Notes under the pieces: generated by a model
The model's database searches: none
What the model was told of the DNA's origin: nothing
Seen by the model: the letters and a program-made list of their open reading frames with translations, nothing else
Part shown: one piece after another, positions 13,842 through 53,338 of the stretch
Layout of the letters: the number at the start of each line of letters is the position of its first letter
Numbering within the stretch: the first letter of the stretch is position 1
NCBI RefSeq assembly: GCF_048128805.1
Contig: NC_136010.1
Location: 21,169,480-21,233,479 of the forward strand
Origin: Centroberyx gerrardi
Taxonomy: Eukaryota; Chordata; Actinopteri; Beryciformes; Berycidae
Length of the DNA: 64,000 nt
Reading direction: 5' to 3'
Position numbers and translations under genes: made by a program

Positions 13842-34791
<20,950 letters not shown>

Positions 34792-40550: not shown

Positions 40551-40683
40551 ATGAGTGATGTCAGTGAAGAGTCGCTGCTGGATTATTTCTACTCTACCGG
40601 AGGCAATTCAGGCAAAGTCAAAAATGCAGATATATTGAAGACATATAAGCCTTTTATTGGCCATAGTGACTTGCAATTACGTG
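40551..40683 (+). CDS. SOWAH exon 1: start and winged-helix-like domain
   Basis: ATG at 40551 with G at -3; donor gtaagt. It reads MSDVSEESLLDYFYSTGGNS, then GKVKNADILKTYKPFIGHSD. The pattern of helix, then GGK-V-N--L---KPF, is the SOWAH N-terminal hallmark. Ends with one base of the next codon. Confidence 0.9.
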
Positions 40684-43600
40684 GTAAGTAGCGTTCAATT
40701 GTATCAGAGATTCAGCTAGATTAAATTATTTCCCCGAAAATGGGAAAAATGTGTGGTCATACACCAGACTGCACCAGTTACAGTGCTGGTCGACAGTAAA
40801 CTGGCACGAATATCACTTGACCTCGTGTTTGTCTGACCAGCTCATATTTGGGCTATAGTCTATATCGTTCAAATACGCCTTTTCAACGCAGTAACCGTAC
40901 AGCAGCCCTGTTCCCACAAACGGCTTTTCAAATAAACGCCGTTTCATTGTTCTCCGGGATAAAGCAGACATCTGGTTTGCATTAAAAGCCTCTGCAAACC
41001 GATACAGTTTCAACAGGAATTCTGTCATTTCCTCCCTGAGGCCAGTTGTAGCTGCCTGGCAGTGAGTAATACTGGACGAGCCATCACCAAAACATCACAG
41101 TGTTACCTGCAGGCCCTGCGGCTCCAGTTGTTAGCCTGTATAGACTGTTTAAACCACAGTGGTTCCCAATCTGGGTCCTGGGACCTGCGGGGGTCTTTCC
41201 AGCGGGTCCCTTAGCAAAATGAGGAATAGTTCATTTCACTGTTATTTTCCTCAGTTATTTCCCTCAGTGGGAGAATGTATAAGGATGTTTATATTATAGG
41301 CTTCACTCTCCCCTCTGCTCTTCTCCACCCACCTACAGTACAGACAGTTATGCAATCCTGCCCTAAATCATATCTAACAACTAAAATCTTCTCAAATGGG
41401 ACAAAATCTTATTCCCAGATAGTCCAAATAAAATCTCAACCCACTATATCCCATTAAAACCCTGTAACACTACTTTTGTGTGTGCAGTTAAAACACCCTT
41501 CATGAACTAATCTCAATGTACCTGTAGTGTGATTGTATGGATTTATTGACTTAGAAGACAAATAATGAGCTCGTAACGATGTAGTTGTCTATCCAGTGCA
41601 TTCTACAATGCCTTTATCTCTGGCACCAACTGCAATACAAGTAGGCTTAACGTATTTTAACCTCTCCAAACGATTATCCAAAGTGACCTTGTATTGCAGT
41701 CGTCAGCTTGTACTGTCCAGATGCTGTGTCAGCACTGCAGTTGTTGACAGAGGTTTAGGGAACTGCTCTGATAGTGTGCCATCTGACATGGCTGTCCAAT
41801 TAGGGAAATGCTTTCCACATACTTAAAGTCTGTCATAGCATGTGCTTGCAGCTTTTCATGTCATAATTGTGGTGATAGTGTTTTAATCATAATTAAGTCC
41901 ACATGCATGACTAGATCTGGAGCTCTAATGGGGAGCTTTTTCATCAGGATTGGGCAAAATTGGGACGTGGTGGGAAATGTATGAGGTGCTGCTTGTGTGT
42001 GTGTGTGTGTGTGTGTGCCTGCTGTTTGCGCAAACCTCTGGCTAATAAATAACTGGACATGCATACCGTGTTACCCTGCATGGTAAGCAAGGAATTCGTT
42101 TGTTGAGACAGATGTAAGTGGCTGCTTCCTTTGGCTTTCCTGTTGTTGTGAATGTGAACTATGCGACTGTCTCACTACAAATGTTCTTTCCCCTCCGCGT
42201 CAGGAAAAAGGAAACACTTCAATTGTCCAGAGCTGCATACCCGCGCACACCTAGGCATTAATGAAATACCTACGGCTGGAACGTTTCATGACCAGTCGTA
42301 CCGTGTTTGCTTAGCCGCCTGGTCTGCTTGATAACCGTGGGCCTACACTGACAGGCAGCTCTGAGTCACAAGTCTGAATATCTGCTGATCGAATGGTAGA
42401 AACCAGCTTTGTCTGATGAGGCGGAGGTCTACCAGCTACCCAACTGTAGTCTGTTTGGTTCCCACAGGAAAGACTCGGCCTTTGGAGATGCAGTGGAAGC
42501 TGTTTCTATCTTTGCTCATGCTGGAGGAGGTCTTCTTTCCCCTCTGTACCTTGTTTTGCAGTGACCTTTTTTTTTTTTTTTTTTTTTGAAATGACTGTTT
42601 TGCAATGTGAGCTGTGTTCGGCCTGGCCAGCCAGTAGTGTGTTGGAATGGCCCTCCTCCCTCCTAGTGCCTCCAGATGAAGAAACAGGAGAGAGCAGCTC
42701 AGTCCAGCAGACCTTAGCTCATAGACTACACATCTATTGCAAACAGACACCATCACGACTGGCTGGGTCTGTGTGTGGGAATGCTTTAGGTGTAACACAG
42801 AGTGGTGTAAGACAAATCTAATGCTGAACACCAAGAAATGAAACTTTATTCCAGTTCTGTTTATTCATTTAGTGCTGTGGTTTGTGTCTTTTCCCAGTCA
42901 TTTGACATTTTGTGTATCAAAACCCCTAAGGTGAAAGTTAAGTATTATGTGAGAAATGAGAAGTTATATTTAGTTTTTCGATTTTTCATGCCAAACTTTT
43001 TTTCCCCCCCTGCAGCTAAATACAGAGAGGAATTCAAACTCATCATCGACAGAATTGCTGTAGTGAAGTCAGAGAATGTAAGTAAACTAGAAACTGTTTT
43101 TACCTTTTGTGGAAAACGCTCTGCTGCAGTGTGTACTGTATTCATATTTCCACACTGAGGCACACACACACAAATGTATCAGTGCTATAATGAGGTTCTC
43201 ATGGCAGCTAAACTATCTTGACTTAACAAGGAGCTGCCCCATCTGTTTGCTTTGTTTTCTACAGTACTGTATGTACCCGCTGGTTTCCCCCAAGGGACTG
43301 CCGCCTCAGTTCTCCATTTCCTTGTAATGAGCTATTTTTACTATTCAAAAGTATTTTCACATATTGACTCTTAAGGTGATGAGTAATACTGCAAAATCAA
43401 TTCAGTCCAAATTCCTTCCTACACAGAAGACTGGGTTTATATTGAACTTAAACTTATATTTTCATCATCATCTACCTTTTATTTAATCAATCATCTATCC
43501 TTTATTTAATCAGGTAGTCTCATTAAGATTGACATCTCTTTTTCATGAAACCTATAAGAACAAAAAACATTCATAAAATTGACAAAGTCACACTTTCCAG

Positions 43601-46600
43601 CAGCCAAACAGTCAGTAATATACATACAAAAACATTATTTAACATAACAAATACTACATTATACAAAGCAATTACAAACATCATTGAAAACATGAGATCT
43701 TATTACTTTAAATAACTGAAGGGGACAAGAAATTTTCATTTCAAATTGCTTTGCAGTCTGTTCCAGAAAGTAGTGCCAGAAACCGGTCTTGCCACGTTCA
43801 GAATTGATATGCAGAGTATTTAAAACTAACTTTGTCGAGTCTTGTGATCTGGTACCATAATTACTGGATTCAAAATACAGTAGAGTAACCCAGTGTTTTT
43901 ATATCAATTACAATGTTGAGTGTGAAATGTATCTCCTGTAATAGAACAAAAGACACTGTGGTAAACTCCATCCAGTAGTTTCAAAGAAGAAGGGGCAGCA
44001 TGCAAATACAAAATCAAATACAGACATGACTGTGGTTTTTTCTATCTTCTAAAGACTTTCTGTCTCTCTCTCTCAGGGTGAGAAGTACCTGGTCCTGAAG
44101 AAGAAATACAGGCAGCTGCTACATGAGCGAGACGCAGAGCATCATGGGACGGACAGGGACGGACAGAGACATTCCAGCCCGGCCAGAGCGGACGCCTCCT
44201 CTCCTTCTCCTCCCCAGATGGAGCTCCAGGACACTCCTGCTGCGGAGAGGAGGCCTGGTCAGGTGATGTGGTGCGGAGGCTCCAGCATCGCCGCAACAGA
44301 ATCCACTGACCAGGTGAATTTCAAATCATCTGACAGGTCTATTCTATTCTATTCTATTCTGTGAAACTGAAACTGAAACTGTGGGACGAGCTGGGATGAT
44401 TCAGCAACAACATGGGATGTTACAATGCATCTTACTGTATCTGCTGTCAGCTCAGCACAGCACATGTTTACTGTTCATGTGGATGACGTATCTCTCTCTA
44501 AACAAGGCCCTCTTTGTTAGTGTTACTCTGCCATCCATTGTCTCTCCGAGCATGTGTGAGCATTTAATGGCAGTGCTGTGGCATTGACATTTAGACAAGG
44601 GAACAGTGTGGAAATGAATGGGCTCTCATATCTCATAAATATTTTCTTTCTCTGGGGCTGATCGAAGTTCGCTGCTGTGAGAAGAATGGGAGGGTCAAAC
44701 CAAAGTGGTTATGTCTTTACATACAGGGTGGAGCCGTTTAAAGCTTTTTTGCACTGCAGCACTTGACTGCTGTAAAAATAAACCCTATGCACTGGTTAAA
44801 TGCAGGATAATCCACCCAAAAGTACTTTTACAGGGCATATTGTTCATGTGAAGAACTTGAGCGTTTAAGCATAGATTTGAAAGATTAACGTATCCTCAAC
44901 TGGTCGAGTGTCCATGCACATGATTTGCGCAGACAAGCCCTAAAGCAAACATTATCTCTCTACACACAGATGGTGAAGGGAGGAAAAGAGCAAGAGCACA
45001 AAAAAAGGGTTTTACGCAAAGTGTGAATACTGGCTGTTAACCTCAACTGGCAGTTAGAGCAGCTAAATGGTTAGCCTGTGAACACTCATCAGCACTCTTA
45101 GATAATAGTAAGCTTGACTTTACTGTGTCTTTTCCTCTTTTAGGAGCAGCACACAGGGAGGACCGCCACTCTGAGGGAAGCTCCTGTTATCCGAATCGAG
45201 GAACATAGCAATGGGGAGGATGAGCTGGACAAAGATTCGGGGTCAAAGGTGACGACTGGACTGGTTGAAAGGGCCGGGTTCATTTATTTTAAAGTGTTGA
45301 TAATTCTTGTCCTTCTATCACTGAGAGGAATTCAGGCTATAGGACTCCAGAGCATATAATGAACAAATCACTGTGGGTGAATTTCCAGCATTTAATTACT
45401 GTTTTTGGTTAAGGGGAAGCCCACAACTTGCAGGTAACCAGCTTCCTGCTTCCAGTTACAAAATCGAACTTGTTGTTTTATGGGAACTATAAGCATTATC
45501 ACACAGTTTCACCGAGGTCCAGCCAAAAACTCTCCAGTAAAAAGACTCACTTCCAGTTCGGAGATTACACACCAGTGGTTCCTCCAGCACCCACCAGGTG
45601 GTGCTATAAGTAAATTACCTGGATTTGAAACCAATGCTGAACATTTGAGTGGGAGGGGGAACAATATGAAAAGGGGGGTTGACGGGGAGGGGGCAATCTG
45701 CATTTAAATAAAGCCCTCTGTTATTATGTTAAGCAGCAACATGTTGGAACTCATTAGAAAGATAATAATGATTTGTGCCCATTAAAGAGATTGGGATTCA
45801 TCCCAGAGAAAGATATGTGGCTTTCCTTGATGGCCTGAACGATAGACAGATGAAATATGTTGGAGTGTGTTAATATAGCACTACAATCAGATTAAGTGTG
45901 TTTGCTTAAGGTATTAGTCGCACCGTTGAACTCTGTATTTAGGACACCCGGTGAATAACATGACAGTTTTTCTGCGTTGTTGAATCTACCTGGCTGGTTC
46001 ACCGCAGCGTCACACACCATTTTGAATTAGAACACCTTAGACTTTTTAATTATTCTTCGTGCAGCACCCAAAGCTTGGTAGGACTTGTCATTTACAATTA
46101 CTTTAACCTTAAATTTATATCAAATATAGACATCAACATCCTCAAGTATCTTATGGCTGAGTACAGCACTTCAGAACTCAAAGGTTTTTCACATATAGGA
46201 TGGCAAAGTGGTGTTAGGTTTTTCATTCTGTAATGTAAACACTGGTGTGGAAAGAACCTCAGAAGAAGCCTGGTAGTATGTAGTGATTCCCCTGTGTGAT
46301 TTCCACTTTCAATGCAGTCTGTTCACCAGTAGTCAGAGGAATCTCCCCTTTACTTTGAAAACTCTCTCTTGAAATTTGTTTTGGTTGTTGGAGTGCAGCA
46401 TCACTTCACTCTACTTCTCCACACGCCATGTCTAATGCAAGACAAAAGCACTAGAATTACCGTTTATGAACAACAAAATTAAAAAGCGCTGAGAGGGTGC
46501 TTGCCAGAATTCTTGTAACCAGGATCCAACTCTTTACTTCATGCCCAACAATGTTTTTCTCTCCTTCTTATTATGGTTTCCAGCAAAGTGTGAAAAAAAA

Positions 46601-49600
46601 AAATGGACATGTGCCAGTGTGGAATTGGCTGGATAAATACTATCCCTCCACTTTGCCTGTTCAACACAGTGACGTGTGACAGTTGGTGCAAGAGACATGA
46701 AAGGGCTGAGTGTTTTAACGTCGTGTCCCGGTCTGATCTGAGAACAATTTGCAATCAAGTCCTCCTCAGAAAAGGCCAAGAAAAAAAACACAATCTCCCC
46801 TCTCACATTAATCAGCCAAAGTGACACTTTTGTACACTCTGAGAAGGGCTGCGTTCGCTATTTTCAGAGTGTTTCTCTTGACCCCTTCGACTGAAACGGT
46901 GAGAAAAACACATGGCCTGGCTGCAGGCGTGTTGTTTTTTGGTTAATTGTTAATTGGATTGTTATTCATTACCCCTTAAGTGTGAAAGCGTCACCTCTGT
47001 CTCGCTGTCTCATTACCTCTCTATCTGTCTGACACCCTTTGGTCACTTCTCCTCAGCTGAAAAACATCACAACGGTGTGACTGTAGTTGTGTGTGTGTGT
47101 GTGTGTGAATGTGTGTGTGTGTACTGGGTGATGCTGGATCATACTGTATGAGTGTATCACAGTTTATGCTTATTGTCACTTTCCAGAAATAGTCATATGA
47201 TTCTTCCATCATCTGTCTTTTAGTCGGAGTCGGAGCAAGACGAGGAGTGTATGGGCAGCATGGGCTCCACCGCAGTCGCTGTAAGTTCTTTTCTCTTTTC
47301 TCTTTTCTTTTCCTATGCTGTTCTGTCTCAAAGGAAAGGCTTAGAGGAGCCTTAAACAAAACTTTTTAAGAGTTTCCACAGCAGAGATCAAACAGTGGCT
47401 GGGGAACCATGTCAGTGTAGTAGTATTTCCAAAATCGATGTTTTTAGATGTCAGTTGATGCCCATCAAGGGACTGGTCTTGGAAATTCGATTCAGCTCTA
47501 CACAGACGTACAAAACATCAGATGCTGTAGCTGATATGGTATCACTGTTACTGATGCTTGTTCCTTTTAAACAAATAACAGAAGTAAAAGTGGAAACTGT
47601 TGTATCAACTTGCTGCCGTTTCATGGGTGTCTCCCAGACTGTCAGTTGGCTGTGACTCAGTCAGCGGTGGGAAATGGATTAGAGGGCTGTAGCTTCACTG
47701 CTATCAAAAGCCCACAGAACAGGATGTGGATAGTAGAGGGTGTGTGTATGCGTACGTGCACGTCTGTTGAGCCCTCACCTCCTCCCCTGCCTGTTCTAGC
47801 TGGACCCTATAGAGAAGGAGTGGATCTACTCAGCAGCCTGTGCTCGAGTCCCTGACCTGTCCCAGCTGCTCAGACAGGACCCCTCGCTGGCAAACAAGAA
47901 GGTAGCGCCGCTCTCCGCCCCTGTGCCTCTAAATGTAACACAAACGCCACGTCAACAAAGTGAAGTTTTGCAAATAAAAACTCATGCCATCATAGGTTGC
48001 CTTAATCAAACTGAATCAACAGGTCTGTCCTGGTAGTCTGTTGGCTGTGTGTAGTGGGATTCTGATGGTTTGCATTGTATAAGTAAGCCTCTCTAATATT
48101 TGGTTTCTGTCTTTTTTGTTGGGTCAAACCAGGACTTCACCTCAGTGAGTATTGTCTCTAGCATTTTGAGAATTTCTTTGTCGATTGTATGTAACATGTT
48201 GCATCTTGTGTTACAGTATGTACTATAGGTGTAAATATTATTAGTATAAAGTATTGTGATACATGTGGTGTATTACATGACTTTTGTCTGATTTCAAGCC
48301 TTTTATTTGCTCATTTTAATGTGCTGTGGCTCCTGACTGTGACCATGACCATCCTTCTCAGGGGGTAAGTTTATTGATACAGCATGCAGTGATATCACTA
48401 GGTCATAAACCGATTCACGTCTCTCCTCTAATGTCTATTCATGTCTAGCCTGTTGGGCTTGTTGAACAAGTTCATATACAACTTTAGCCCAGGTTACCTG
48501 CATTGCAACTGACCATATAGCAGAACAGTACTTCTTGATTTATCAACTGTGATTGCATGTTTTAGCATGCTATACAAAAAAAACCCTCACTCAGATCCGT
48601 ATTTTGCTTGCATAACTTTCACAAGCTCATTCTGTCGAGATTTTCTCCCTAATTGTATTCTGAGAACCCTGTGTAAAAACATCCAGATCATGCATTTCAA
48701 AGGTCCACTATCAAAAGGATTATGAAAGATAGCTTTTTAGCTCCTGTGCCCCCCTGACAACCCAAATCCTTTTATTTGTCTCCCTGTGCGCTTAAGAGAT
48801 TTGAGCTCATGTTTGTTGTCCCTCCCCTGTGTCACAGTTCTCACACCGTCCTGTGGCCATGGCAGACCACCTTCTAAGAGTAGCCCTAAGCCTCTGCCAT
48901 CCCCACCCGGACAAGATAGCACGGCCGCCATTGAAGTGCAGGGAGATGGGGGGGGATTAAGGAGAGTCTTAATGCGCCACAAAGACTTCACCCACTTAAA
49001 GATAATCTGAAAGTAATAGAGCAGGCTGGGATTAATTGTAGAACAATGTTGGTCGTGTCCCCGGGAAGGTGCTAAGTCCCCCTCAGGCCTCTTTGATGTT
49101 CCCTCTAGCCTTCAGCCTTTCCCTGTTCAGAAGAGGTGGATGCCTTTCCACAGATAGGCTGCAGAGATACCTCACCTACAACCAGAAGTAATAGGAAATC
49201 GCAGGGTGATATTTAGGTTTGTTTTTAAAGCCAGGAGTTATTATTTTTGGTCTCTTGGTTAGACAAATCTTGCTCCATTGCTATGTCAGTATGTTCGGAC
49301 TTTGCTCAATACCAAAACCAAAAACCAGGTAGCAAATCAAATGTTTGACTAAGACTGAAGGGATTACTCATTGCTTCCTTATCCTGGCAGGACTTAAGCT
49401 TTTCCTGTTCTGACCAAATATTGAGGAAAACTTATGTCCCTATACAGATGATTGTTTGGGATTATGCGGGTTTACATTGAGTTTCTAGATATGCCCTAGT
49501 AGCTTAAACCAAACAGTTGTTTGAAGGTGAAATTGCTAACAAGGGAAGACATACCCATATAAACACCCACATCTCACCCAAGCCAAGCGCTAATCACTCC

Positions 49601-52600
49601 TAGTCTCACGCTCTTCTTCTCTTCCTGTTCTCTTGGTGACGCGGGCCACTGTTCCTGCTGTGATGGACTTCCTCTCTCCGTGCCCTACAGTTTGTAAGTA
49701 CATCATTGGCCCATCACTCCTCTCCGTCTTCCTCTAGATCCAGGAAAGTGTCGGGCCACACTGGCCATTGTGTCCCCTGCTGATTTGCGCCTCAGCCCTT
49801 TAGCCACCGCTCCCCTCAGTGGGGAGTGGGTGGCAGGGACAGAGCCGTCCCTGAGTGATCGGACAGGTGGGTGGGGGGGCCGCGGCCACCCCAGTGGGCA
49901 GGAACAGAAACGAGAGGCGCAGGAAGGGAAGACGCCGCATCCTGTTCAGCCTCGTCCATCACCCTCGCCCACTGGGAGACCCGCCGAGCCGCCTGTCAAA
50001 CAGCCCTTCGGCCAATCTGTCTTTAGGATGTGACAGAGGGGGCAGACAAAAGAGATGGAGATACTCCAGCCAGACGGCATCTATCACAATCTGTCTCCCA
50101 GACGGCCCTTAGACAGAGGGATGTGTACCTACCTTTTCCCCGTTCCCTTCTTTGGATACAACGTGGAATATTTCTAATGTCAGCTGTTGCGCAAGCTCAT
50201 TGTGTTGTGGTTTGATTAAGAGATTATGGGGTCAATCCTCAGCAGTGTCGTGGCTTGACACCCAACACAAAATCTGTCTTCAGGTAAAGGACTGGTGTCC
50301 TGTTCAGGCAGTGTACGTATAAGTTGAGATGAAAGTGATGGAATGGAAAGGATCTCCAGTTTCATAGATAAGAGTTCAGAAGCTCTGCTGTTTGTGTTCT
50401 GAAACCCCATGTTATGCTTCAAAACACCTCAACACACTATGTAATGTATCATGTATGTGTCAGAAAACACTCACTGTGGAGTATTTCAGTAGACTGTGTC
50501 ATCAAAACAACAATGCTATGCTATAGTTTTGATTCTTTCTAGTTGTCAACAGCTTGGTTTCCACCACATTTTGGATTTTAGAAAACTTTAAAAATGCAAT
50601 AGTACATTTTGGATTGCATAGTTGGCAACATGTGCTTTCACCAAACAAGTCGTATGTATATACTGTATGTATCATAGTTATTGAAGAAAGGTATCATTGT
50701 AGAACTGGTATTGAAGTTGAAGTATATTGGTTTTGAAAAATTCCTAGTAATGTCAACTTTTTAGGAGCTAAGAAGACTTGCCCTGTTGTTAGCTTGATCA
50801 CCATAAGTTTATCCAGTTGGGTTTGAAAGGGTAGAATTTTCTCAACCCATAGATGAGCATGCAATCCTTCAATTGAAGTGAAAACATGAAAATGAGGTTA
50901 CAAGTTTTTCATCTGACCACAGCGATATGTAATTCTGAGATGATTACCGTTTGATTTGCTGTGTTAAGTCCGGGGTCACACTCAGAAGGAATGGATGTGG
51001 TTACTTGGCTGACATCTGCACCTACGCTGTGCTTTCACCTGTTGATAGCCCATAATTACCCAGCCTAAAGTATGTAGCCCTGACAAGGGAAACACGCTAG
51101 ATCACAGTTGTGCTACTTAATAGTCAGACAGGTGGATGTGGTTGATGCGGTTTGCACGTGACTGTGTGTTTGTGCGTGTGCGTGGTTGTACGTACATGTG
51201 TGTCTATTATTTGCACTCATGTATGAGTATCAGTGTACGCGTGGACATAAGTGTGTATCTCCAAGGTTTGTGTAGCGGGGGCCCTGCTTTCCCTCTGTCG
51301 TGTGCTGACAGTGGTGTGGTGATGCCTGGGTGGGTCTACCCTCTGCGGGTCACACCAACATCATCAATCTTCCCCCGGGTGACAGGCGGCCGGGCCCCCC
51401 AACCGTGGGCACAGTGCTGTGTTGTTTTGTAATTAGGCTCCGTTAGATGGCAGGAAACCATCTCTCTCCATCCCTCCTTCTCTCCATCTCTCCATCCCTG
51501 CACTCCCCTCTGTGCACAGCTGGCCCTCTGCCCTCAAACAGCCAATGAGAACCTCTCAACCTGCTCTGCTCGGCTTAGACAACTTGTAAGCACAGTAATG
51601 ATGCTGTGGCAATTACTATGACAGTACAAAACATAAGGATGTTGGAAAGAATGTGGTTGGTCATGTTTCTCTAGTTTGCATTTCACAGGGAGTAGTTTAG
51701 AAAGAGTGAATTTAAAGACATTATAGTACATTTTATGAATAACTTAGTCTCCCCTCTCTTTATTGTACACAGACAGCTCTGCATTGGGCAGCCAAACATG
51801 GAAAAGAGGACATGGCCGCCCTGGTGGCTAATGCTGGTGCCGATGTCAACACCAAATCAGTGAGTGCTTACTTTCATTTTTAGAAGATCATTTGAATTCT
51901 CTGTCTTCATCAATGCAAAATCACTGACTGATTCATGCAATTCTTTATGTGTTCTCTCTTTTCTTGCAGCATGTGAGTAACTGCTCTCTTATCAAACACG
52001 TATACGAGCAGGAAGTGATTGGTAGGTAAGTCGTTTGATTTTAATGGATAATAATAACCAACAGAACGGGGCCCCTTGGCTGCTGGTTTGAGTTCAGGTT
52101 TCTTCTGTTGTGCCCCTCGGTGATGTAATGCTCCTAAATGATCTCTGTGAAGATCCAGCTGTGCAAATGCATTACAGCAGCACGTGTTGCAGGGAGTACT
52201 CTGCTAATAAATCATGTCATGTCATGTTAATTGTTTCCCAAAACAGTGTCTGAATGTGCCAGCATGCCAAACGCTAGAACTATGCAATTTTCAGCGAATT
52301 ACCAACCAATTACGTTTTTATCATTATCTTGTGTTTCCATAACCTTTGCTAATTTGTATATTTTCTCCCTCGGTGTTTTCACTGGCTGCGTTTGGGCATG
52401 GGAAACTCTAGGGGGTAGGTGGTAAACCTTTCCAGCACTTTTCCACAGTTATTCCTTGAACTCTCTACACAGTAAAAATGCCAAAGGTGATGTTCAGACA
52501 TCTTGGACAGGCTTAGCCCTTTATGTGTGAGCAAAGTGTCAGAGTGTTGAGGATATGCATGCCAGGTCACAAGTGTCTTCTTTTAGAACACACATATCAG

Positions 52601-53338
52601 TAATTAAATTAAATTAAATTTTCTTTATGCATGTTTTTCCTTTGTTTTTACATTTGTTTTTGTCCTACAGGGATACACACCTTTACACATCGCAGCGCTA
52701 CATGGTCATCGGCACATTCTTGACCTTCTCATAGGGACATATGGTAATTAGATGACTTGCATTTAACTCATGGGTTGCAGGGGGTGGGGTAGGCTTACAA
52801 GCATAACCATGAATCCACAATAGCAGAGTTGTATAGCCTTAGGCTTTAGGTATAAGGTGTCAACGAACTAGCTCAACTGCTGCCTTCCATGACCCGTTTC
52901 CAGTTTTCAGAGCTTTTTTCCCTTATCAGGTGCTAGAGAAAACTTAAGGGACTACAGCGGCCGTCTCGCCTGCCATTACCTGAACATCAGGGAACCCGAG
53001 GGACCAGAGGAAGACAGCGAGCTACGTGAGTGTCTCTTACTTTTGCTGCTGCTGAATTATCAAATGATTTGAATGAAATGCCGAGCTGCAGTGGCTAACA
53101 ATGGAGCGTTTATGGGTATAATGAATTCTCACTGGCCTTTTGACTTTTGTTGCATGTGATCCCAGAATTCCAAGTGACCCAGGCCAGAGAGCGGAACAGG
53201 AACAGGAAGTTGACGTCGCTGTTCCAGTCCAAGAAGAAGTGGGGCTCAGCAGAGGAGCTGGCTCCCATAGAGGAGGAGAGAGCAGCCCCACATCAGCTCA
53301 TCCTGCCTGCATTCAGACCCAGGAAGTTCTCCCGCTGA
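40551..53338 (+). CDS. SOWAH-family (sosondowah) ankyrin-repeat protein, whole coding span
   Basis: Exons: 40551-40683, 43016-43077, 44077-44313, 45144-45248, 47224-47280, 47800-47901, 48133-48144, 48362-48364, 49691-49693, 51773-51859, 51970-51972, (52412-52414 predicted), 52671-52743, 52930-53025, 53166-53338. They give 381-382 residues. Residues 1-80 match the SOWAH N-terminal winged-helix-like domain (GKVKNADILKTYKPFI, KYREEFKLIIDRIAVVKSEN, EKYLVLKKKYRQLL). About 80-198 is acidic and variable. Residues 199-315 hold ankyrin repeats (LDPIEKEWIYSAAC, DFTSGFTALHWAAKHG, GYTPLHIAALHGHRHILDLL, RDYSGRLACHYL). A basic WGSAEELAPIEEE tail follows. The biochemical function of the family is unclear; ankyrin repeats suggest an adaptor role. 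The paralogue (A, B, C or D) could not be fixed. Confidence 0.9.
41153..41230. mobile_element. hAT (Charlie-like) end fragment
   Basis: CAGTGGTTCCCAATCTGGG is close to the CAGNGGTTCCCAA terminus of hAT/Charlie elements; followed by GGGACCTGCGGGGGTC. Only one end is seen. In SOWAH intron 1. Confidence 0.45.
42567..42587. repeat. Poly(T) tract, 21 nt
   Basis: Mononucleotide run in SOWAH intron 1. Confidence 0.95.
43016..43077 (+). CDS. SOWAH exon 2: winged-helix-like domain
   Basis: Acceptor cctgcag after a T/C tract, donor gtaagt. It encodes AKYREEFKLIIDRIAVVKSE N, corresponding to the family's RDRFKQFVNNVAVV-type helix. Confidence 0.92.
43455..44035. mobile_element. Probable degraded repeat in SOWAH intron 2
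   Basis: Two copies of ATCTA(T)CCTTTTATTTAATCA and a GTAGTCTCATTAAGATTGACATCTC stretch, typical of dispersed teleost repeats (TTTATTTAACCAGG...CTCATTGAGAT). Boundaries are uncertain. Confidence 0.35.
44077..44313 (+). CDS. SOWAH exon 3: end of winged-helix domain and linker
   Basis: Acceptor tctctcag, donor gtgaat. It starts GEKYLVLKKKYRQLLHERDA, the family's last strand, then a Ser/Pro/acidic linker (SSPARADASSPSPPQ) ending ATESTDQ. Phase 0 at both ends. Confidence 0.9.
44338..44380. repeat. (ATTCT)n then (GAAACT)n
   Basis: Four pentamer copies followed by three GAAACT-type units, just after SOWAH exon 3. Confidence 0.9.
45144..45248 (+). CDS. SOWAH exon 4: acidic linker
   Basis: Acceptor tcttttag, donor gtgacg. 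35 codons: EQHTGRTATLREAPVIRIEE, HSNGEDELDKDSGSK. Low complexity, phase 0 at both ends, so it could be skipped without a frameshift. Confidence 0.83.
47224..47280 (+). CDS. SOWAH exon 5: acidic linker
   Basis: Acceptor gtcttttag, donor gtaagt. 19 codons: SESEQDEECMGSMGSTAVA. Phase 0 at both ends. Confidence 0.83.
47800..47901 (+). CDS. SOWAH exon 6: first ankyrin unit
   Basis: Acceptor tgttctag, donor gtagcg (weak). 34 codons: LDPIEKEWIYSAACARVPDL, SQLLRQDPSLANKK. The LDP-E-xW--AA pattern followed by LL--DPSL is the conserved start of the SOWAH ankyrin block. Confidence 0.92.
48133..48144 (+). CDS. SOWAH microexon 7: 12 nt, DFTS
   Basis: Acceptor caaaccag after a T-rich tract; donor gtgagt. 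Four codons D-F-T-S in phase 0. The family has a DF-x-S/T-GFT-LHW motif here, so the residues are exactly those expected between NKK and TALHW. Confidence 0.85.
48362..48364 (+). CDS. SOWAH microexon 8: 3 nt, Gly
   Basis: ccttctcag|GGG|gtaagt. Upstream, no AG occurs between about 48300 and the acceptor, and ctgac branch-like sequence lies at 48333. It supplies the invariant Gly of the GFT-LHW motif in phase 0. Confidence 0.78.
49691..49693 (+). CDS. SOWAH microexon 9: 3 nt, Phe
   Basis: ctctctccgtgccctacag|TTT|gtaagt. Strong pyrimidine tract and perfect donor around one codon. Phe is the expected residue between Gly (48362) and TALHW (51773). Confidence 0.8.
51773..51859 (+). CDS. SOWAH exon 10: ankyrin repeat TALHWAAKHG
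   Basis: Acceptor gtacacag, donor gtgagt. 29 codons: TALHWAAKHGKEDMAALVAN, AGADVNTKS. A canonical ankyrin repeat with the T-A-LHWAA turn and GADVN loop. It is separated from its own first residues by microexons. Confidence 0.93.
51970..51972 (+). CDS. SOWAH microexon 11: 3 nt, His
   Basis: gttctctcttttcttgcag|CAT|gtgagt: near-ideal pyrimidine tract and acceptor, then a consensus donor. It gives K-S-H before GYTPLH; family members have SHGGYT-LH here. Confidence 0.8.
52412..52414 (+). CDS. Predicted SOWAH microexon 12: 3 nt, Gly
   Basis: Without it the protein reads S-H-G-Y-T-P, one Gly short of the usual SHGGYTPLH. ctctag|GGG|gtaggt fits: no other AG lies between a tgctaat branch-like site (52346) and this acceptor. 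An alternative is GGA at 52193-52195 (gttgcag|GGA|gtactc), with a weaker donor. The exon may also be absent. Confidence 0.45.
52601..52621. repeat. (TAAAT)n short tandem
   Basis: About four AAATT units just upstream of SOWAH exon 13. Confidence 0.9.
52671..52743 (+). CDS. SOWAH exon 13: ankyrin repeat GYTPLHIAALHGH
   Basis: Acceptor tcctacag after a T-rich tract, donor gtaatt. It encodes GYTPLHIAALHGHRHILDLL, IGTY. Canonical ankyrin helices. Ends with one base of the next codon. Confidence 0.94.
52930..53025 (+). CDS. SOWAH exon 14: last ankyrin unit
   Basis: Acceptor cttatcag, donor gtgagt. It reads GARENLRDYSGRLACHYLNI then REPEGPEEDSEL. The RDYSGR-ACHYL pattern is a SOWAH signature. Ends with one base of the next codon. 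Confidence 0.92.
53166..53338 (+). CDS. SOWAH exon 15: C-terminal tail and stop
   Basis: Acceptor gatcccag. It encodes QFQVTQARERNRNRKLTSLF, QSKKKWGSAEELAPIEEERA and ends PAFRPRKFSR with TGA at 53336-53338. Basic tail with a KKKWGSAEELAP motif, a possible 14-3-3 or kinase site by pattern only. Confidence 0.92.

Follow-up and report, generated by a model that had tools for sequence, protein, structure and literature searches.

We analysed a 64-kb stretch of the genome of the fish Centroberyx gerrardi, here called the window, which lies on contig C14 of a 779-Mb genome and contains an intact SOWAH gene on its forward strand. From an ATG at 40551 to a TGA at 53338, fifteen coding exons are spread over 12.8 kb of DNA, and they join in frame with zero stops to encode a protein of 382 amino acids (aa). 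The spliced protein matches Pfam Ank families and contains the SOWAH core motifs, and the relatives listed nearest to it are fish proteins named SOWAHA, B, C or D, with a few named ACBD6 or uncharacterized. The winged-helix family PF25877 is precomputed for most of the listed relatives; the Pfam copy that we used did not report it on the window protein. Judged by these sequence matches, the gene is a teleost SOWAH rich in introns. A preliminary reading of the letters alone (the original prediction) had proposed this identity, which the ankyrin repeats and the fish relatives uphold.

Within the gene lies a chain of exons in the order DFTS (12 nucleotides, nt), G (3), F (3), the TALHW exon (87), H (3), G (3) and the GYT exon (73), separated by introns of 217, 1,326, 2,079, 110, 439 and 256 nt (Table 1). 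Its four one-codon exons form two consecutive pairs, G-F and H-G, and each of these coding microexons (3–30 nt) has its own acceptor and donor on its two sides. Across the whole gene, six of the fifteen exons (DFTS, G, F, H, G and one of 57 nt) are shorter than 70 nt with a length divisible by three, the longest run being three. The original prediction had placed the DFTS and TALHW exons and three one-codon exons (GGG at 48362, TTT at 49691 and CAT at 51970) correctly; they are in phase 0, each follows an AG and each has a GTRAGT donor. All three of these 3-nt exons are real, two of them consecutive, but the count was one too low. It ranked 3-nt exons as the smallest known, which is outdated: Arabidopsis has a reported constitutive exon of only 1 nt (PMC4674806; see also PMC8831610).

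Table 1. Features of the window (positions count from its first nucleotide)
Feature	Positions	Strand	Remarks
Multi-exon SOWAH coding span	40551..53338	+	In-frame joins, ankyrin repeats, fish SOWAH relatives
102-nt exon LDPIEKEWIYSA...SLANKK, chain's upstream neighbour	47800..47901	+	Weak donor GTAGCG
12-nt microexon DFTS	48133..48144	+	Donor GTGAGT; donor read-through (DFTSVSI etc.) in 10/180 other listed entries
3-nt exon GGG (Gly)	48362..48364	+	Donor GTAAGT; sole G candidate in gap with GTRRG donor
3-nt exon TTT (Phe)	49691..49693	+	Donor GTAAGT; sole F candidate in gap, any GT donor allowed
87-nt exon TALHWAAKHG...NTKS	51773..51859	+	Donor GTGAGT; VS read-through in 28/180 other listed entries
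3-nt exon CAT (His)	51970..51972	+	Donor GTGAGT; sole H candidate in gap with GTRRG donor
3-nt exon GGG (Gly), fourth	52412..52414	+	Donor GTAGGT; sole G candidate in gap with GTRRG donor
73-nt exon GYTPLHIAALHGHRHILDLLIGTYG (GYT exon), chain's downstream neighbour	52671..52743	+	In-frame join
Conserved stretch, intron between G and F	48832..49137	+	Translated by models of different fish, in two different frames
Intact homeobox frame, 299 aa	60650..61546	+	Pfam Homeobox_KN, E value 1.7e-18; 7.3 kb downstream of SOWAH stop

Splice sites and encodings in the gaps

The gap between DFTS and TALHW (3,628 nt) contains only two AG-NNN-GTRAGT sites, which encode G and then F. The forward strand of the whole window has six such sites, three of which are the G, F and H exons. 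As background we used 487 kb, made up of twenty arbitrary 10-kb stretches of the genome and the window outside the gene, with both strands counted. This background holds 22 AG-NNN-GTRAGT sites for any codon (two for G, none for F or H), which predicts 0.16 sites for the gap. With the looser pattern AG-NNN-GTRRG it holds 151 sites for any codon, among them sixteen for G, one for F and two for H. From these few background hits we roughly estimate a probability of 4e-4 for meeting G and F in that order, and of 4e-5 for H followed by G within the 811 nt downstream of KS.

We also enumerated all one- and two-exon encodings of GGNTTY and CAYGGN in their respective gaps. With GTRRG donors each gap has a single encoding, 3+3 nt in both, and with plain GT donors there are four solutions for GF and three for HG. 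All three for HG are 3+3. There is no hidden 6-nt exon for GF or HG in either gap; a single hidden Gly-Phe exon in cDNA is what the original prediction had named as its own refutation. GF has no solution in its gap when split 1+5, 2+4 or 5+1. A 4+2 split of GF was rejected: it gives three combinations with plain GT donors, two with GTR and none with GTRRG.

The fourth one-codon exon was overlooked in the original prediction, which had the residues G, F and H in the order of the family and joined H to GYT, one Gly short. Joining CAT straight to GGATAC gives KSHGYTPLH, where the family motif is K-S-H-G-G-Y-T-P-L-H. The missing Gly is supplied by GGG at 52412-52414 (AG-GGG-GTAGGT), the one AG-GGN site with a GTRRG donor between CAT and the GYT exon. 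With approximate weights, a CTAAT resembling a branch point lies at -60 of this exon, and the stretch from -51 to -38 is rich in pyrimidines. Gene models of Polymixia and Nerophis read the homologous flank (GHGKLQ-G and GPGKLQ-G; GHGKL*-G in the window) straight into GYTPLH. Two other candidates for a G exon, GGA at 52193 and 51689, were rejected for their weak donors and for preceding AGs only 12 and 14 nt away.

Three of the four 3-nt exons have GTRAGT donors. The zones free of AG upstream of them measure 63 nt for the first G, 87 for F, 83 for H and 117 for the fourth exon, the last being the longest at any acceptor of the gene. These lengths fall in the top 2.1, 0.6, 0.8 and 0.2 per cent of 32,853 background gaps, for a combined p of 3e-6 if the four are independent. 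The sites have the form AG-NNN-GT, unlike the zero-nucleotide AG-GT type of recursive site (PMC13149111).

The four residues in relatives and gene models

Three protein searches, each with 120 matches listed (of 7,495, 582 and 3,906), returned 196 different proteins (P0001-P0196). Sixteen of them come only from a source labelled lgn, with contigs of 1,188-2,785 nt, open frames of 340-410 aa and 61-84 per cent identity to a Myripristis SOWAH. We read these short contigs as spliced transcripts, because the coding sequence of the window gene spans so much more DNA; two of them, of 1,188 and 1,195 nt, are so nearly filled by their frames (340 and 352 aa) that no intron would fit. GF and HG are both present in all sixteen, as DFTS-G-F-TALHW and K-[SA]-H-G-G-Y-T. 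The comparison with other fish that the original prediction called for thus bears out its order of G then F, and the microexons are present in what we read as the mRNA of relatives. A query without the four residues returned eleven lgn-only entries among the 120 matches listed, and all eleven carry the four residues. We infer that most mRNA contains all four exons.

The other 180 listed entries include several isoforms of one species, so that the counts are not independent. The full first motif occurs in 29, the full second in 68 (69 with a looser pattern) and both in 18, leaving 162 in which both full motifs are not shown. Sorted by the first place, the entries comprise DFTS+F (57), full (29), nothing (20), DFTS (12), DFTS+G (10), donor read-through (10), F alone (3) and other or insert (39). 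At the second place we counted full (69), nothing (43), donor read-through VS (28), H only (16) and other or insert (24). These faults match exon units, and since G and F come and go independently of each other, they must lie on separate exons. Where a model continues past a microexon into upstream sequence, that sequence agrees with the flank in the window, as in Cyclopterus, where CDYNHPAQ-G-F corresponds to CDHDHPSQ-G before the first GGG of the window. Public fish entries for this single gene go by the names SOWAHA, SOWAHB, SOWAHC, SOWAHD or ACBD6, and most lack at least one of the four codons.

The named matches listed are teleosts, one of which (P0101) also stands under a ferret name in nr. 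Because the model faults extend from eels and bonytongues through herrings, catfishes, carps and salmons to percomorphs, the arrangement of one-codon exons probably predates the living teleosts, as judged from protein models rather than DNA.

The same genome has four intronless SOWAH-like frames (L001, L002, L003 and L005, on C21, C11, C16 and C16), which are consistent with retrocopies. The first place is kept as G-[F]-[TS] in all four; at the second, two have KTHGGYTPLH and two have two other residues. In a predicted structure of Myripristis P0001, used for illustration only (mean predicted local distance difference test score, pLDDT, 58), G-F opens a helix (240-250), and H-G falls in the loop preceding the next helix (276-283).

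Conserved intronic DNA and the homeobox neighbour

Several fish annotations translate intronic stretches of this gene as exons in varying frames, namely 48832-49137, 49755-50103, 51280-51375, 51517-51609 and 52268-52414. Identity to fish models is 98 per cent at 48832-48954 (P0014), 96 per cent at 48864-48947 (P0093) and 78 per cent at 49066-49134 (P0093). It is lower (53-78 per cent) across 49066-49134, 49755-49877, 49867-50103, 51280-51375, 51520-51591 and 52268-52414. Where two frames of the same DNA both show high identity, conservation of non-coding sequence is indicated, and the stretches read in different frames are likely to be conserved non-coding elements. We considered whether GF might come from a coding cassette exon at 48838-49012 and rejected this, the same DNA being read in two frames across models of different species. 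The corresponding 'exon' of Myripristis isoform X1 (FSHRPVAMADHLL...) has a frame shift at a run of G (48938-48960 of the window), which also speaks against a coding exon there. A further exon-like stretch, AG-LALCPQTANENLSTCSARLRQL-GTAAGC at 51520-51588, is an exon in the Diretmus and Polymixia models and occurs in none of the sixteen lgn-only relatives.

Downstream of SOWAH lies the homeobox frame of Table 1, which, judged by its motif, is of the Iroquois type. A 364-aa open frame on the forward strand at 33482-34573 has no Pfam match. In the fly, Iroquois control regions lie inside SOWAH introns; in tetrapods, SOWAH is gone from the locus and a retrogene exists instead, with the control modules kept (Maeso et al. 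2012, as cited in PMC12311624 and PMC5803294). The window fits this known, ancient Iroquois-Sowah block in having SOWAH beside an Iroquois-type homeobox, conserved intronic DNA and intronless copies elsewhere in the genome. It differs in its microexons, which go unmentioned in the available parts of two accounts of the block (PMC5803294, PMC12311624).

Splicing of the chain and known microexon systems

Exon definition requires factors at each end of the exon. With only 3 nt there is hardly space for simultaneous binding at the two ends, so that removal of one adjacent intron would come first and fuse the codon to a larger neighbour; the enlarged exon, back at normal size, would then offer the next splice site. 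Strong donors and long upstream AG-free zones, with room for a distant branch point, would permit this stepwise fusion. The introns would persist as carriers of conserved regulatory DNA, probably that of the Iroquois-type neighbour, and thereby keep the codons apart. The reading that we favour, with a probability of roughly 0.7, is that the four one-codon exons, in two consecutive pairs behind a 12-nt exon, are included in most mRNA and spliced stepwise, with their introns kept by regulatory DNA. We consider it likely that each codon is fused stepwise to one of its neighbours, upstream or downstream. The idea, which the original prediction had also put forward as likely, agrees with published reasoning on steric limits, by which U1 and U2 are unable to assemble together on such short exons (PMC10250204). 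According to the same paper, most SRRM4-dependent microexons have strong 5' and weaker 3' sites, and their downstream intron is removed first. A broader proposal, to which we would give slightly less than even odds, is that the two pairs have been kept since before the living teleosts split, the intervening introns being indispensable as carriers of Iroquois control elements, that codon-by-codon fusion replaces exon definition, and that tetrapods escaped through intronless retrocopies.

Several observations weigh against parts of the favoured reading. Long AG-free zones also precede two larger exons, the GYT exon (70 nt) and the last exon (59 nt), so they are not confined to the microexons. 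The fourth one-codon exon has a weak local pyrimidine tract and the donor GTAGGT, and the enhancer role that we suppose for SOWAH introns is taken over from published work. On the order of intron removal the model faults give conflicting hints: the excess of DFTS+F over DFTS+G could mean that F joins TALHW first, whereas H without G, against no counted case of G without H, suggests the opposite direction, and annotation bias could produce either. Lastly, the Salmo salar entry C0HBN1 (representative P0126, seven members), which is probably derived from cDNA, lacks the first G, suggesting that the first-G exon may be skipped in some mRNA. Another Salmo salar entry, P0098, has it. This pair would suit a gene in which some one-codon exons are optional, with mRNAs that carry or omit the first G (and others) and ankyrin repeats one residue apart, and so would the rank of DFTS+F as the commonest single class. 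We regard such optional use as unlikely, given the four residues in every lgn-only entry (where database clustering at 90 per cent identity can hide minor forms), including those found with the query that lacks them, and given that G occupies an ankyrin consensus position in alignments.

A little less likely again is recognition of each codon exon in one piece through strong flanking intronic signals, with no obligatory stepwise fusion. Human MPC1 has a 4-nt exon that is constitutively included by this route, requiring 67 nt upstream and 6 nt downstream (PMC9929638), and the chain has strong donors and long AG-free zones of its own. The MPC1 exon, however, is a single one between normal exons, whereas SOWAH has consecutive 3-nt exons twice, and the weak local acceptor context of the fourth exon also argues against recognition in one piece. 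By far the least probable alternative is that the AG-NNN-GT strings are chance matches and that the four residues are encoded elsewhere or absent. AG-NNN-GTRRG sites occur at about 0.31 per kb, so that the first gap would be expected to contain 1.1, whatever their codon. Against this stand the lack of 6-nt exons, the agreement of the residues in kind, order and number with the intron-free relatives, and the use of homologous flanks by other fish models.

Other genes share features with the stepwise chain that we favour. In human RPS24, three microexons of 3, 18 and 22 bp form a run (PMC11162997), which resembles SOWAH in having consecutive microexons, one of 3 bp, in a vertebrate gene; that run is alternative, tissue-dependent and near the 3' end, with a single 3-bp exon, while the SOWAH chain lies in the middle of a folded repeat. 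One-codon exons also occur in mouse Ncam and Drosophila TnT (as cited in PMC8042270), where they are single, and that of TnT is skipped in some muscle. Mouse Dctn2 has a pair of 9 and 6 nt (PMC7821500). In plants, a peptidase M1 gene has two adjacent microexons (5 and 12 nt), and APC11 and VPS55 have exons of 1 nt (PMC8831610, PMC11096116); like the SOWAH exons these are conserved, tiny, coding and widely missed by annotation, and include an adjacent pair, but a run of 3-nt exons is not described in the parts available. In the micro-exon genes of flatworms, at least four successive exons are shorter than 70 nt and have lengths that are multiples of three, and skipping varies the protein (PMC7653826), unlike the SOWAH chain, which sits in a conserved fold. 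In the literature library searched, no paper mentions both Sowah and microexons. Consecutive 3-nt exons are undescribed in the available parts of the literature on adjacent microexons and 3-nt exons, a coverage that leaves out the 2012 Sowah paper, which may describe them.

With its two pairs of consecutive 3-nt exons, which apparently reach the mRNA of many fish, SOWAH would be a natural substrate for asking whether vertebrate splicing can dispense with exon definition and, if so, in what order the introns are removed, and an extreme natural test of the minimum exon size that the splicing machinery can handle. It also exposes a systematic annotation fault, seen in the 162 of 180 other listed entries without both full motifs. 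Putative regulatory DNA in the introns between these awkward exons suggests a reason for their survival.

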